NCBI RefSeq assembly: GCF_000455825.1 | Contig: NZ_ATAO01000217.1 | Coordinates: 62,001 to 126,000 of the forward strand | Reading direction: 5' to 3' | Length of the DNA stretch: 64,000 bases | From: Microbacterium maritypicum MF109 | GTDB taxonomy: Bacteria > Actinomycetota > Actinomycetes > Actinomycetales > Microbacteriaceae | Part shown: positions 4,456 to 21,245 of the stretch, in pieces | Layout: each line of letters opens with the position of its first letter | Numbering within the stretch: the stretch's first letter is position 1 | Position numbers and translations under genes: made by a program | The notes under the pieces: model-generated | Told to the model about the DNA's origin: nothing | The model's database searches: none | The model's input: the letters and a program-made list of their open reading frames with translations, nothing else

Positions 4456-4830
<375 letters not shown>

Positions 4831-4970
4831 GCGGTTCTCCTGGGTGTTGTGGAGGTATGGAACAGGATCGGTGCCCGGGCCTCCGCCCCGAGGTGTCCCC
4901 CGCTTCCGCGAGTTCTGATCCTGCCGTTGTGTTTTCAGTTGTGAGATGTGCGTGAGCGATGCCGCGCAGC

Positions 4971-5001
4971 GCGGGCCCGTCGATCAGACCGGCGGGCCCG
5001 C
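4971..5001 (-). terminator. Hairpin just after rpmJ
   Basis: GCGGGCCCG (4971-4979) pairs with CGGGCCCGC (4993-5001), beginning 7 bases past the rpmJ stop. It could end or attenuate the infA-rpmJ transcript ahead of rpsM. Confidence 0.55.
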
Positions 5002-5008
5002 CAGGGAC

Positions 5009-5125
5009 TCAGCCCTGGCGCTGCTTGTGACGCGGGTTGCTCTTGCAGATCACCATGACGCGGCCGTGACGGCGGATCACCTTGCAGTGATCGCAGATGG
5101 GCTTGACGCTGGGGTTGACCTTCAT
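5009..5125 (-). CDS. rpmJ: Large-subunit ribosomal protein L36 (zinc-binding form)
   Basis: A 38-residue bL36 found by translating the gap between rpsM and infA. It starts [20 protein letters not shown] and ends NPRHKQRQG. The zinc ligands C11, C14, C27 and H33 are all present, so this is the zinc-ribbon form. It is placed next to infA, as in most bacteria. Confidence 0.96.
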
Positions 5126-5189
5126 GATGTTTCCTGTTCGCTGTCTTCGTACCGCCCCAGGCAGGGGCAGGCCGTTACTTCTCGACCGA

Positions 5190-5411
5190 TCAGCGGTAGC
5201 GGTAGACGATACGGCCGCGGGTCAGGTCGTAGGGGCTGAGCTCCACGACCACACGGTCCTCGGGGATGATACGGATGTAGTTCTGCCGCATCTTGCCGGA
5301 GATCGTTGCAAGGACCTTGTGTCCGTTGCTGAGCTCAACGCGGAACATCGCGTTGGGCAGAGCCTCGGAGATCACGCCCTCGATCTCGATGACACCGTCT
5401 TTCTTAGCCAT
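5190..5411 (-). CDS. infA: Translation initiation factor IF-1
   Basis: A 73-residue S1/OB-fold protein that binds the 30S A site during initiation. The sequence ([14 protein letters not shown]..., then [19 protein letters not shown]) is a near-standard IF-1. The ATG at 5411 is the conserved start; the longer open frame is leader sequence. A good promoter lies about 100 bases upstream, so infA starts its own unit rather than depending only on secY-adk-map. Confidence 0.97.
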
Positions 5412-5429
5412 AGCCTCGCTGACGCTTCT

Positions 5430-5447
5430 GCAGATCGGTCGATCTGC
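5430..5447 (-). promoter_or_regulatory. Hairpin in the infA leader
   Basis: GCAGATC (5430-5436) and GATCTGC (5441-5447) form a 7-bp stem, 8 with the closing C-G, around 20 bases upstream of the infA start. It may be a leader structure or a weak terminator for readthrough from map and the dsb-like gene. Confidence 0.4.
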
Positions 5448-5516
5448 GGTGGGTGATTGGTTTGTGGTGCTGCACCGCCGGACACGCCGAATCAAGGCAC
5501 AAAGCACCAAAGATCT

Positions 5517-5545
5517 ATGTTAGACGCTCCGGAGCCATCCGGCAA
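5517..5545 (-). promoter_or_regulatory. Probable infA promoter
   Basis: On the minus strand TTGCCG (5545-5540) and TAACAT (5522-5517) are spaced 17 bases apart. This is a good sigma-A arrangement, giving a start near 5510 and a leader of roughly 100 bases to infA. Confidence 0.5.
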
Positions 5546-5575
5546 CTTGACGGCCAGGGCCGGGAAGCCGCCGGT

Positions 5576-6244
5576 TCAGCTGATCAGGTCGGTGAACTTC
5601 TTCAGGTCGGCCTGGTCCTGCAGGTTGAGGCGCGTGCCGTTGATGTCCACCGTCGGCGTGCCGGCGATCTCGTGGGACTTCGCCTGCGCCGCACCGAACT
5701 TGCGGTACGTCTCGTCGGTGATGCACGAGACCGCGTCGTCCGCACCGACCTGTGTCGCGAAGCCGGCCAGCTGGTCGTTCGTCAGACCGGTCGAGTTCTC
5801 CTCGGGCTGGTTCTCGAAGAGCGTCTTGGCGAAGTCGAGGTACAGGTCAGGGTTCGACTCGGCGACGCAGAACGCGGCACCTGCCGACCGCGAGGAGTAC
5901 TCGGTGCCCTGCGAGAAACGGTCGAGGATCGCGATCGGGTGGTACTCGAGCGTGATGCGGCCGTCGGCAGCCGCGGCTTCGAGCTGAGCACCGAACTGGT
6001 CCTCGAAGGTCTTGCAGACCGGGCACTGGAAGTCGACGAACACCGCGATGGTGTCTTCACCGTCGCCGAACGAGACCGCACCGGTCTCGGAGTTGAAGGT
6101 GTCGTTGGCCTTCGGCGCCGCGCCGGGCGAGGTCGCCTGGTTGTTGAGGAACACCACGAGTCCACCGATCGCCACCAGCACCACGACGACGGCGATGGAG
6201 ACGCCGATCGCGAACCAGTTGGTGTTGCTCTTCGCCGCTGCCAT
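5576..6244 (-). CDS. Membrane-anchored DsbA-like thiol-disulfide oxidoreductase
   Basis: A 222-residue protein with an N-terminal transmembrane anchor (~12-33), a short linker and a thioredoxin-fold DsbA domain outside the membrane. The active-site motif is CPVC (C74, C77) in VFVDFQCPVCKTF, and a cis-proline loop appears as GTPT near the C-terminus. Two further cysteines (FCVAES, SCITD) may form a second disulfide. It probably oxidises or reduces exported proteins. The stop of map is directly adjacent to its start (6244), so it is cotranscribed with map. An exported redox protein between map and infA is unexpected within a translation cluster. Confidence 0.85.
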   Translation of the reverse strand: MAAAKSNTNWFAIGVSIAVVVVLVAIGGLVVFLNNQATSPGAAPKANDTFNSETGAVSFGDGEDTIAVFVDFQCPVCKTFEDQFGAQLEAAAADGRITLEYHPIAILDRFSQGTEYSSRSAGAAFCVAESNPDLYLDFAKTLFENQPEENSTGLTNDQLAGFATQVGADDAVSCITDETYRKFGAAQAKSHEIAGTPTVDINGTRLNLQDQADLKKFTDLIS

Positions 6245-7095
6245 TACTTTCCGATCTCTCGAGGCTCGACCCCGAACGGGGCGAGTCCGGCTCTTCCACC
6301 ATCGGGCGCAGTCAGCACCCAGATACCCCCATCATGCAGGGCGACGCTATGTTCCCAATGGGAGCCGTCTGTGCCGTCCACCGTGGTGACGGTCCAGTCG
6401 TCCTCCTCGATGAAGGTCGCCTCCCCACCGGCGGTGACCATCGGCTCGATCGCGAGCACGAGGCCGGGCTTCACGTCTTCACCGCGGTCGGGTGTGCGGT
6501 AGTTGAAGACGCTGGGGGCTTCGTGCATCTTGCGACCGATGCCGTGTCCGACGTATTCGCGCAGGATGCCGTATGGCTCGCCGGAGACCGCTGACGGTCC
6601 CTGAGCCTCGATGTAGTCCTGGATGGCCGCACCGATCTCGTCGATGGACGAGACCGAGGCCATGGCGGCGATTCCCGCCCACATGGACCCCTCGGTCACG
6701 CGGGAGAGCTCCTCGCGACGGGCGACCACCTCGGGGCGCTCCGGGTCGGGCACGACCACGGTGATGGCGCTGTCGCCGTTCCACCCCTGGAACTGCGCAC
6801 CGCAGTCGACCGACACGATGTCACCCGGCTGGAGCACCCGCTCCCCCGGGATCCCGTGCACGACCTGCTCGTTCACCGAGATGCAGGTGGTGTGGTGATA
6901 GCCGCGCACCAGCTGGAAATTCGACTCGGCGCCGCGGGCGAGGATCGTGCGGTTCGCCACCGTGTCGAGCTCGAGCGTCGTCACACCGGCCTTGATCAGC
7001 GGGCGGACAGCATCCAGTGCCGCCGCCGTGATGAGGCCGGGCTCCACCATGGCTCGCAGCTGAGCCGGGGTCTTGTAGATCGACCGGCGGAACAT
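6244..7095 (-). CDS. map: Type I methionine aminopeptidase
   Basis: A 283-residue dinuclear metallopeptidase that removes the initiator methionine from nascent proteins. The pita-bread fold metal ligands are visible: D in VSVDCGAQ, D in GWNGDSA, H in YVGHGIGRKMHEAP, E in LAIEPM and E in the WEHSVA segment. The ATG at 7095 (MFRRSIYKTPAQLRAM) is chosen; it lies a few bases after the adk stop, and the longer frame overlaps adk. Cotranscribed with secY-adk. Confidence 0.95.
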   Translation of the reverse strand: MFRRSIYKTPAQLRAMVEPGLITAAALDAVRPLIKAGVTTLELDTVANRTILARGAESNFQLVRGYHHTTCISVNEQVVHGIPGERVLQPGDIVSVDCGAQFQGWNGDSAITVVVPDPERPEVVARREELSRVTEGSMWAGIAAMASVSSIDEIGAAIQDYIEAQGPSAVSGEPYGILREYVGHGIGRKMHEAPSVFNYRTPDRGEDVKPGLVLAIEPMVTAGGEATFIEEDDWTVTTVDGTDGSHWEHSVALHDGGIWVLTAPDGGRAGLAPFGVEPREIGK

Positions 7096-7096
7096 C

Positions 7097-7702
7097 TCAG
7101 GAGGCGGAGGCCGCGAGACGCAGACCGCGCGCGGCCAGGGCCTCGGCGATGCGCTCGGTGATCTCGTCGAGGGAGCCGACGCCGTCGATACGGTCGACGA
7201 TGCCCTTGGCCCCGTAGACCTCGAGGATCGGGGCGGTCTCGCGCTCGTAGATGTCGAGGCGGTGGCCGATGGCCTCCGGGGTGTCGTCGGAGCGTCCCTG
7301 CTCGGTCGCACGGAGCGTCAGACGCTCCAGACTCTCCTCGCGCGGCACGTCGAGGAGGATGACGGCGTCGAGCGCCTGTCCCCGTTCGGCGAGGAACGAC
7401 TCGAGGTGGGCGACCTGCGCGGTGTTGCGCGGGTAGCCGTCGAGCAGGAAGCCGTGAGCGGCATCCTCCTGTGACAGGCGGTCGCGCACGATCTCGCTCG
7501 TCAGCTCGTCCGGAACGAGGTCGCCCTTGTCGAGGATCGCGGTGACCTGCTGCCCGAGGGGCGTCCCCTCCTTGATGTTCGCCCGGAAGATGTCGCCGGT
7601 CGAGACGACCGGGATGCCGTAGGACTCGGCGATGCGCACGCCCTGCGTGCCCTTGCCGGAGCCCTGCGGGCCGACGATGAGAAGACGTGCGGATGCTGTC
7701 AT
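7097..7702 (-). CDS. adk: Adenylate kinase (short-lid form)
   Basis: A 201-residue enzyme for ATP + AMP <-> 2 ADP. The Walker A loop GPQGSGKGTQ is at 11-20, the nucleotide-binding DGYPRN follows, and the lid is the short form (LRATEQGRSDDTPEA) with no zinc-finger insert. Its ATG overlaps the secY stop by four bases (ATGA), so the two are translationally coupled. Confidence 0.96.
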   Translation of the reverse strand: MTASARLLIVGPQGSGKGTQGVRIAESYGIPVVSTGDIFRANIKEGTPLGQQVTAILDKGDLVPDELTSEIVRDRLSQEDAAHGFLLDGYPRNTAQVAHLESFLAERGQALDAVILLDVPREESLERLTLRATEQGRSDDTPEAIGHRLDIYERETAPILEVYGAKGIVDRIDGVGSLDEITERIAEALAARGLRLAASAS

Positions 7703-18495: not shown

Positions 18496-18503
18496 GTCGA
18501 ACC

Positions 18504-18812
18504 TCAGAGCTTGATCTCGATGTTGACATCGGCCGGCAGGTCGAGACGCATCAGCGAGTCGACGGCCTTGGGCGTCGGGTCGACGATGTCGATCAGACGC
18601 TTGTGGGTGCGCATCTCGAAGTGCTCGCGGCTGTCCTTGTACTTGTGCGGCGACCGGATGACGCACACGACGTTCTTCTCGGTCGGAAGGGGCACGGGGC
18701 CGACGACGGTTGCGCCCGCACGGGTCACGGTGTCGACGATCTTGCGTGCGGACGTGTCGATGACCTCGTGGTCATACGACTTCAGGCGAATGCGGATCTT
18801 CTGTCCCGCCAT
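18504..18812 (-). CDS. rpsJ: Small-subunit ribosomal protein S10
   Basis: uS10 (102 residues; also NusE, which binds NusB and NusG in antitermination). [20 protein letters not shown] and [20 protein letters not shown] match the family. It is the first gene of the S10 unit. The frame is open another 126 bases upstream, but the family start and the long leader argue for ATG at 18812. Confidence 0.97.
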
Positions 18813-19145
18813 TGTCTGCTCTCTCTCTTTAAGCGTCTTACCGACCGGGACCGGGTGGCCCTGGGGCATTGGACGCACGTCGGCGCTGTTCGCGCCTCGG
18901 CACGAGAACGACCCTCGCGAGTCGATCTGCTGCACCACTGTTCTTCTGTCAGCCGGAAGCCGTGAGGCGACCGGATGCCGACCTTCCGCCGCGCACGGCG
19001 GAAGCCTTCGTGAAGAAGGGTGTCGGGGTGTGTTCTGCTACCCGCGGCCTAGAACCCTGCACCGTCCCGGAGGAGGCGCCGTCTATGCACTGCCCTGGCA
19101 GTGATCCGACGCACGCACAGCGGCGACGGAATATCGAACCTGTCT
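18813..19145 (-). promoter_or_regulatory. S10-operon leader (about 330 bases)
   Basis: No gene is seen here. The stretch lies between the predicted transcription start near 19139 and rpsJ. It contains an 8-bp hairpin at 18983-19004 and several shorter complementarities. A long structured leader is known for S10 operons regulated by L4 in other bacteria; whether that applies here is inference. Confidence 0.5.
18983..19004 (-). promoter_or_regulatory. Hairpin in the S10 leader (attenuator candidate)
   Basis: CTTCCGCC (18983-18990) pairs with GGCGGAAG (18997-19004) across a 6-base loop, about 180 bases upstream of rpsJ. It has the shape of an attenuator stem but no U-run follows. Confidence 0.4.
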
Positions 19146-19175
19146 ATTCTGCCACGGCTGATTTCACTTGTGCAA
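19146..19175 (-). promoter_or_regulatory. Promoter of the S10 operon
   Basis: On the minus strand TTGCAC (19175-19170) and CAGAAT (19151-19146) are separated by 18 bases. It lies downstream of the 14-bp terminator at 19246-19277, as expected for a fresh start of transcription. Confidence 0.65.
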
Positions 19176-19239
19176 ACCCGGGCGTGTCGCGGTCCGTCGA
19201 ACGCGACTCCAGACGGTGCGTGAACAGGTCAGAGTGCGG

Positions 19240-19530
19240 GAGATAGCGGGGCGAGGCATCCCCATGCCTCGCCCCGCTTGGGGAGGGCGTTCAGTGCGAG
19301 GGGGCACACCGAACGCGAGTAGCCCGGCGTGAAGGGACGCCGAACTCCTCGACCGAGGGCGCGGCGGAAGACCCGCCGCGCAGGCGGGGTGACGCTCAGG
19401 CGCAATGAGTGCGCGCGTCGCACGATGATCCCCAAGATCGCATATCCCCAGTTTGTACGCGGAACTCCGCGTGCTTCGGGAAACCGAACCCCTTCGGCTC
19501 CCCCGACCGCAAGATCCCCAGGCGGTCGAG
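19240..19530 (-). ncRNA. Candidate structured small RNA between two terminators
   Basis: Read on the minus strand, this stretch forms a series of local hairpins: CGACCGC/GCGGTCG, CCGAA/TTCGG, CGCGGA/TCCGCG, GCGGCGG/CCGCCGC, and finally the 14-bp terminator stem at 19246-19277. A -10-like TAGGAT lies near 19535 but no clear -35 was found. The upstream gene ends in its own terminator (19610-19640) and the S10 promoter follows at 19175, so the segment would be an independent transcript of about 280 nt. An open frame crosses it but lacks a ribosome site and family resemblance. It does not resemble RNase P RNA, tmRNA or SRP RNA. The RNA identity is inference. Confidence 0.4.
19246..19277 (-). terminator. 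Terminator upstream of the S10 promoter
   Basis: GCGGGGCGAGGCAT (19246-19259) pairs perfectly with ATGCCTCGCCCCGC (19264-19277) over a CCCC loop. It would end the candidate small RNA and insulate the S10 promoter. Confidence 0.75.
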
Positions 19531-19609
19531 ACGATCCTACTGGATACAACCGTGAATGCGCCACATCCGACGACATTCCGGCACGGACGCTGCCCCTCCA
19601 GCACGCACG

Positions 19610-19640
19610 AGCGGCGACCCACAGGTCGTGGATCGCCGCT
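19610..19640 (-). terminator. Terminator after the antitoxin-like gene
   Basis: AGCGGCGA/TCGCCGCT with an inner CCAC/GTGG pair (one mismatch pair between), 19610-19640, lies 18 bases past the stop of the gene at 19659. Confidence 0.6.
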
Positions 19641-19658
19641 CGGGGCTTGCGGTCTTTC

Positions 19659-19871
19659 TTACTCGTTGCCGACGGCCTTGTCAGCGCCGTCGCGGATCTC
19701 ATCGATCTTGTCCGCGGCGCCGGGGGCGATCTTCTTGGCGAAGTCCGCGACGCCGTCGAGCACCTTGTCGCTGATGTCCTCGGCCTGCTCGCTCTTGACG
19801 GCCTCGGCGATCTTGTCCTTGTTCTGCTCGTACAGATCCTTGCCCTTGTTCACGGCGTCTTCGATACCCAT
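19659..19871 (-). CDS. Small charged protein, Rv0909/MT0933-like antitoxin family
   Basis: A 70-residue acidic/lysine-rich helical protein ([20 protein letters not shown], then [20 protein letters not shown]). The amphipathic repeats resemble the MT0933-like antitoxin family of actinobacteria. No toxin gene adjoins it. The ATG at 19871 is preceded by AGAAGGGG. Because many such proteins are orphans, antitoxin function is only a family label; a stress-related CsbD-like role is an alternative. Confidence 0.65.
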
Positions 19872-20006
19872 GTGATTCCCCTTCTGAAGGTGTGCCGCCG
19901 ACCGATCGAGTCGACCACACTCATTGTGCATGTCCACCCCGGCAAACGGAACCCTCGCGTCCCGGGTCTACGACAGCACCGCGCCCCACAGGGCGGCATC
20001 GACGAC

Positions 20007-20038
20007 AAAGGGGTCGGACCCGAAGGTCCGACCCCTTT
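20007..20038 (-). terminator. tuf terminator
   Basis: AAAGGGGTCGGACC (20007-20020) pairs perfectly with GGTCCGACCCCTTT (20025-20038) around a CGAA tetraloop, 16 bases after the tuf stop. Confidence 0.85.
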
Positions 20039-20054
20039 GCGAGGAAGCAGATGC

Positions 20055-21245
<1,191 letters not shown>

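Follow-up and report, generated by a model that had tools for sequence, protein, structure and literature searches.

A lineage-specific, probably regulatory structured RNA family in part of the genus Microbacterium

CsrB and RsmZ are sponge RNAs that titrate the protein CsrA. 6S and Ms1 RNAs take the shape of a rod with a central bubble, formed by pairing of the 5' end with the 3' end. Ms1, of about 300 nt (PMC11077062), adjoins the gene of a HAD-IB hydrolase (PMC9130861), while CoRP of Corynebacterium is an example of how RNA polymerase-binding RNAs may be confined to one genus (PMC11077062), according to the parts of these two papers that were available. For 6C RNA the accessible part of PMC9569102 reports C-rich loops and a suggested regulation of multiple genes. 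Among the papers listed, the one nearest to the RNA described here is a prediction of ANTAR-target RNAs across actinobacteria, which covers Microbacterium in the portion of the paper at hand (PMC8164766); the genus is also named in a soil survey available in part (PMC9331176). No report of the Microbacterium RNA was found among the open-access papers listed, which in one case were 20 of 516.

The RNA is encoded on the minus strand, from about 19527 to 19246, of a 64,000-nucleotide stretch of the Microbacterium maritypicum MF109 genome (hereafter the window). Its length of ~282 nt follows from ends placed according to a -10 box and the last hairpin. The -10 box TAGGAT (19534-19539, minus strand) begins 12 nt upstream of hairpin H1, and its form TANNNT is invariant in all 66 non-redundant homologues, with variation at the inner three bases. 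When the 66 sequences are aligned on this box, a block of consensus GNTNTNGCG with six columns at 73-83% conservation stands out amid variable upstream DNA; it lies at 19559-19567 (minus strand) in the window and probably acts as a -35 element. Transcription would thus start near 19527. It would end at the terminal hairpin (19246-19277, minus strand), the putative terminator of the RNA gene, which has no U tract.

The flanks of the gene agree with a first-pass annotation of this DNA, which had placed another terminator upstream of the RNA and a new promoter downstream. Read by eye, an inverted repeat at 19641-19608 forms a terminator-like hairpin behind the preceding CsbD/MT0933-like gene, and a sequence resembling a promoter of the S10 operon lies 3' of the RNA at about 19178-19140, both on the minus strand. 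A CCGGGTTTG block is also found upstream of rpsJ in 8 of 15 Microbacterium loci that lack the RNA. The stretch of more than 300 nt from the S10 promoter-like sequence to rpsJ (18813-19140) seems conserved among the loci compared and may hold a regulatory leader. A consensus scanner reported neither promoter nor terminator in 18500-20200, but it looks for promoters of the E. coli type and for a T tract, and the latter is missing from these hairpins. The arrangement of promoter, structured transcript and terminator hairpin points to an independent small-RNA gene, proper to one part of Microbacterium, whose transcription and function are deduced from sequence.

The same annotation had proposed a structured RNA between the tuf and S10 transcripts, an observation that is confirmed by its folding energy and by compensatory base changes. 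At -168.9 kcal/mol the fold of the minus strand of 19240-19530 is more stable than those of shuffled sequences (mean -135.3, z -5.9), and none of 200 shuffles folds as well. The structure, drawn from the window's own sequence together with consensus folds, has 86 pairs in nine hairpins (H1 to H8 and the terminator), where the annotation had counted at least five consecutive ones. Pairs were counted in 52 of the 66 sequences; of the other 14, L096 and L099 are divergent and 12 are closely similar to others. In these 52 distinct sequences 95.1% of the cells are paired and 44 of the 86 pairs vary at both positions, and none of 500 shuffles is as high on any of five pairing measures. Kinship alone can lift related sequences above shuffles. 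Controls in which the partner was slid by 1-3 columns keep the descent, yet only 31-48% of the cells then pair and 11-16 pairs are double-changed, although a structure drawn from the same sequences tends to outscore its slid versions.

The hairpins, all on the minus strand, differ in the share of their pairs that are double-changed. H1 (19505-19527) has loop CUGGGGAUCUU and changes on both sides in 6/6 pairs, H2 (19478-19502) carries a GGGG tetraloop and does so in 6/10, and H3 (19457-19472) in 5/6. The UGGGGA segment at 19445-19450 has its predicted partner, UCCCCA, at 19279-19284. This long-range helix is uncertain, as one of its six pairs is double-changed and three never vary; in H2 two of the four outer pairs mostly fail to form in A5. 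Support is poor for both the long-range helix and the outer part of H2. H4 (19423-19440), with loop CUUGGGGAUC, is paired in 97.1% of cells and has one double-changed pair of four. H5, made of two stems (19391-19419), and H6 (19359-19381) have 5/10 and 4/9, respectively. Two hairpins with C-rich loops follow: H7 (19317-19350; CCCUUC), in which 4/6 inner and 0/3 outer pairs are double-changed, and H8 (19287-19316; CCCCCU), with 5/12. The terminal hairpin has the perfect 14-bp stem that had been read beforehand as a terminator: it spans 19277-19246, closes on a GGGG loop within an invariant AUGGGGAU apex, and is paired in 100% of cells with 7/14 pairs double-changed.

Two further contacts were considered and abandoned. 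Permitting G-quadruplexes left the minimum energy unchanged in 5/5 sequences tried. A kissing interaction of H2 with H7 (GAAGGG with CCCUUC) found no support in alignments inspected by eye, where H7 reads CCCUCC in some sequences with no matching change in H2.

The loops are more constant than the stems that present them. The RNA profile is matched by 98 loci, of which the 66 non-redundant ones served for motif counts; members found by the covariance model alone (G264, G317, G067 and G324) stand outside the 66. Four GGGG tracts (H1, UGGGGA segment, H4 and terminator apex) are present in 66/66 sequences and the GGGG loop of H2 in 64/66. The H7 loop reads CCCUYC in 66/66 and the H8 loop contains CCCCUC in 66/66, the latter count being biased in L048-L083, which were fetched by an H8-region pattern that itself contains CCCCUC. 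A CUCCCC linker is found in 63/66. Single-sequence folds give mean unpaired probabilities of 0.51 for the H1 tract, 0.04 for the UGGGGA segment and 0.32 for the H4 tract; the values are 0.94 for the H2 loop, 1.0 for the terminator apex, 1.0 for the H7 loop and 0.84 for the H8 loop. Pooled, G residues in GGGG runs reach 0.44 and other G residues 0.11. Two of the five GGGG tracts (H2 and terminator) and both C-rich loops are therefore predicted to be clearly exposed, the other three tracts less so or not at all. An apex that does not change on a stem that does is, to our mind, unusual and suggests a function beyond termination.

The family has a narrow distribution. Among 366 Microbacterium genomes, blastn at E 1e-10 finds it in 79, and R1, a covariance model of the 3' domain (113 positions, built from 54 of the 66 sequences), in 83, in one copy each and always at 71 bits or more. 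The rapid prefilter of the genus scan makes this last count a lower bound. With that filter 283 of the 366 genomes give no match, which indicates that the RNA is not generally needed. In 23 rpsJ loci of RNA-lacking genomes searched with filters off, the best score was 22.3 bits (E 0.033). A separate blastn search of 58 genomes located the element in 8, the own genome included, at E below 1e-30. A family-wide sample of 398 genomes yielded two Microbacterium matches, one of them the own genome, and a single weak, non-syntenic one outside the genus (G545, 38 bits), which was rejected as an unrelated locus that shares little beyond a terminator-like hairpin.

An exact match to the H8 region occurs in 36 named genome stretches, 35 of them titled Microbacterium and including M. 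oxydans, M. paraoxydans, M. hydrocarbonoxydans, M. murale and M. galbinum; the remaining one, a Chloroflexi MAG (L082), fails the RNA profile. Weak blastn matches (L009-L012) were likewise set aside, their sequences looking unrelated and mostly coding. A mobile origin was not retained either: blastn gave no match in plasmids or phages, and the exact H8-region pattern is absent from viral contigs. Sequence comparison thus identifies a real, lineage-specific structured RNA family that is conserved in part of Microbacterium.

Searches against described families bore out the earlier remark that the RNA does not resemble housekeeping RNAs. Rfam 15 gave no match at gathering threshold in the 64,000 bases, and relaxed thresholds in region 18820-19680 gave eight matches at chance level (E 0.31 to 7.9). 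The family matches none of the described families searched and is apparently new. The likeness to 6C RNA (RF01066) is that of an actinobacterial sRNA with C-rich hairpin loops, and the two may work alike. However, the 6C model has two hairpins in 75 positions, while nine hairpins are drawn for the Microbacterium RNA. 6C RNA is recognized by two adjacent hairpins with loops of about six C; here the H8 loop has five C and its neighbour H7 reads CCCUUC. RF01066 has no match in the window at gathering threshold, in 18820-19680 up to E 10, or in L001, L065, L096, L098 and L099 up to E 1, and 6C was not detected in the own genome at E 0.001. Identity with 6C was rejected as 6C forms a separate locus in the Microbacterium relative G013, beside genes that look by eye like acs and tadA. 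The 6C RNA of a relative was seen at L110 1501-1581 (51.7 bits), between acs- and tadA-like genes.

The function of the RNA is probably regulatory. Its stems vary and its exposed loops do not, which suggests contact with a partner. The favoured reading is that of a trans-acting sRNA that base pairs through its C-rich loops, a protein sponge ranking second as the main rival. Its targets would be mRNAs whose purine-rich ribosome-binding regions pair with the exposed loops of H7 (CCCUUC) and H8 (CCCCCUC). Two roles are proposed for the invariant GGGG tracts, which may cover the C-rich segments through contacts within the RNA or may serve as binding sites for a protein partner; for one tract, pairing with the CUCCCC linker is predicted. 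Persistence of the RNA in locus L057, in spite of ~2.2 kb of added distance to rpsJ, counts for action in trans. Points against pairing are that the CUCCCC linker is missing in 3/66 sequences and that most genomes of the genus (283/366) give no match. Loops invariant to the last base would fit protein binding or tertiary contacts as well. With every one of its inferred steps included, pairing through the C-rich loops is a tentative proposal that falls somewhat short of an even chance.

In the rival reading, which we consider unlikely, the (U)GGGGA(U) repeats soak up an RNA-binding regulator as CsrB or RsmZ do with CsrA. The likeness lies in a G-rich motif repeated in several covarying hairpins, the terminator apex included. 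A csrA gene is present in the own genome within a putative flagellar operon. This csrA (L152, 3966-4217) follows open frames that by eye resemble the flagellar export genes fliR and flhA. Across the genus csrA accompanies 59 of 83 RNA-bearing and 47 of 283 RNA-lacking genomes (Fisher p 3e-20, ancestry ignored), a co-occurrence that possibly reflects shared ancestry only. RNA-bearing genomes classified for csrA, drawn from the blastn loci, keep all four tracts as GGGGA in 29/30 cases with csrA and 12/16 without it (Fisher p 0.04, ancestry ignored), a retention that leans towards CsrA.

The same genomes also supply the evidence that weakens a CsrA sponge, despite GGGGA being slightly better kept where csrA is present. 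A csrA match is absent from 24 of the 83 RNA-bearing genomes, so the gene is not found wherever the RNA is kept, and all four GGGG tracts persist in 16/16 aligned RNA-bearing genomes that lack csrA. The core recognized in CsrB/RsmZ is ANGGA, compared with GGGG in the Microbacterium RNA, and the H2 loop (GGGGUU) has no GGA. When GGA was looked for in loops, 41 of the 46 csrA-classified sequences had the four GGGGA tracts, with mean unpaired values of 0.51, 0.04, 0.32 and 1.0. Good exposure is predicted in single-sequence folds for the H2 and terminator tracts only, the UGGGGA segment and H4 being mostly paired. Unlike CsrB and RsmZ, the Microbacterium RNA is thus kept without csrA, exposes its motif only in part and has invariant C-rich loops in addition.

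The first-pass annotation had also suggested an RNA that binds RNA polymerase, and a clade-specific analogue of 6S, Ms1 or CoRP now appears very improbable. The size of ~280 nt is close to that of Ms1, and CoRP sets a precedent for restriction to a genus, being reported from one genus only in the available part of PMC11077062. It was also counted in favour that the Ms1 neighbourhood was not found in the own genome, where all HAD-IB model matches remain below cut-off and the highest-scoring one is a gene that follows a glgC-like gene. Against this, no end-to-end rod is predicted: between the first 30 and the last 60 nt of the 66 sequences the expected pairs average 1.4, with a maximum of 7.1, and both ends form separate covarying hairpins. 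The neighbours differ as well, a CsbD/MT0933-like gene and rpsJ standing where Ms1 has its hydrolase gene, and the lack of a match in 283/366 genomes of the genus further separates the RNA from these systems.

A cis element of the S10 operon, whether leader, attenuator or insulating terminator, is about as improbable as an RNA polymerase ligand. In its favour, rpsJ lies 333-626 nt downstream on the same strand in 62/66 loci; of the other four, two are truncated and two show no rpsJ in the 1.5 kb of sequence covered. However, a promoter-like sequence lies between RNA and rpsJ, and an insulator would not need invariant loops. In L057, moreover, the RNA is intact although rpsJ is ~2.6 kb downstream, ~2.2 kb beyond the usual distance, with an open stretch of 691 codons between them. 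The extra DNA of L057, ~2.2 kb, is found within 4626-7247.

The upstream neighbour in the window is a small protein gene of 70 aa (19659-19871, minus strand), called CsbD-like by eye and similar to MT0933_antitox (PF14013, 24.4 bits, below the 27-bit cut-off). Such a gene precedes the RNA in 62/66 loci. The end of tuf is found farther upstream in 41/66 and was not found in 25, two of which are too short to tell. Loci inspected without it (L003, L007 and L021) have other open frames in the place of tuf, one of which, in L003 and L007, resembles a polysaccharide sugar transferase. The proposed tie of the RNA to the tuf and S10 operons therefore looks incidental, given the missing tuf ends and the distance to rpsJ in L057. 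Among 15 rpsJ loci that lack the RNA, 9 have the CsbD-like gene 415-528 nt before rpsJ, with no room for the RNA, which was thus probably gained or lost as a unit; the gene was not found in the other 6. The small MT0933_antitox/CsbD-like gene accordingly adjoins the S10 operon in 9/15 RNA-lacking loci too.

There is only a remote likelihood of an element acting as DNA, such as a protein site made of inverted repeats, or of an RNA transcribed from the plus strand. Folding of the plus strand is about equally good (z -6.5), as inverted repeats would lead one to expect. Read on the minus strand, however, the 80 nested pairs contain 217 G-U and 69 A-C cells, an excess that favours this strand, 89 of the G-U cells coming from two H8 pairs; the order of -10 box, RNA and terminal hairpin also suits the minus strand. 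A protein-coding gene is practically out of the question, in keeping with the early view that no protein frame is credible: the region has minus-strand open frames of 152 and 157 aa, and in every one of the 66 homologues one or more of the six frames can be read through without a stop, as expected of G+C-rich DNA at their base composition, but none of these frames stays open across the whole set (best offset 40/66), gap runs measure 1 nt in 84 of 131 cases, and RNA lengths spread evenly over the three frames (23/22/21), which argues for a non-coding gene. The proposal of an independent, non-coding structured RNA gene is upheld by these frame statistics, the covarying conserved structure and the lack of a credible Rfam match.

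Beyond the favoured pairing through C-rich loops, the RNA might represent a new regulatory class, a hub of several hairpins in which four or five invariant GGGG tracts, one on the terminator apex, sequester a global regulator that binds G tracts while the likewise invariant C-rich loops act on mRNAs. We give this proposal a low probability; if true, it would mean a CsrB-like control circuit independent of CsrA in these actinobacteria. Microbacterium are easily cultured bacteria. In them this RNA, present in a single copy, strongly conserved and invariant in its loops, is a well-defined subject for northern blots, pull-downs and deletion, for which the sister species with a short site provide natural controls.
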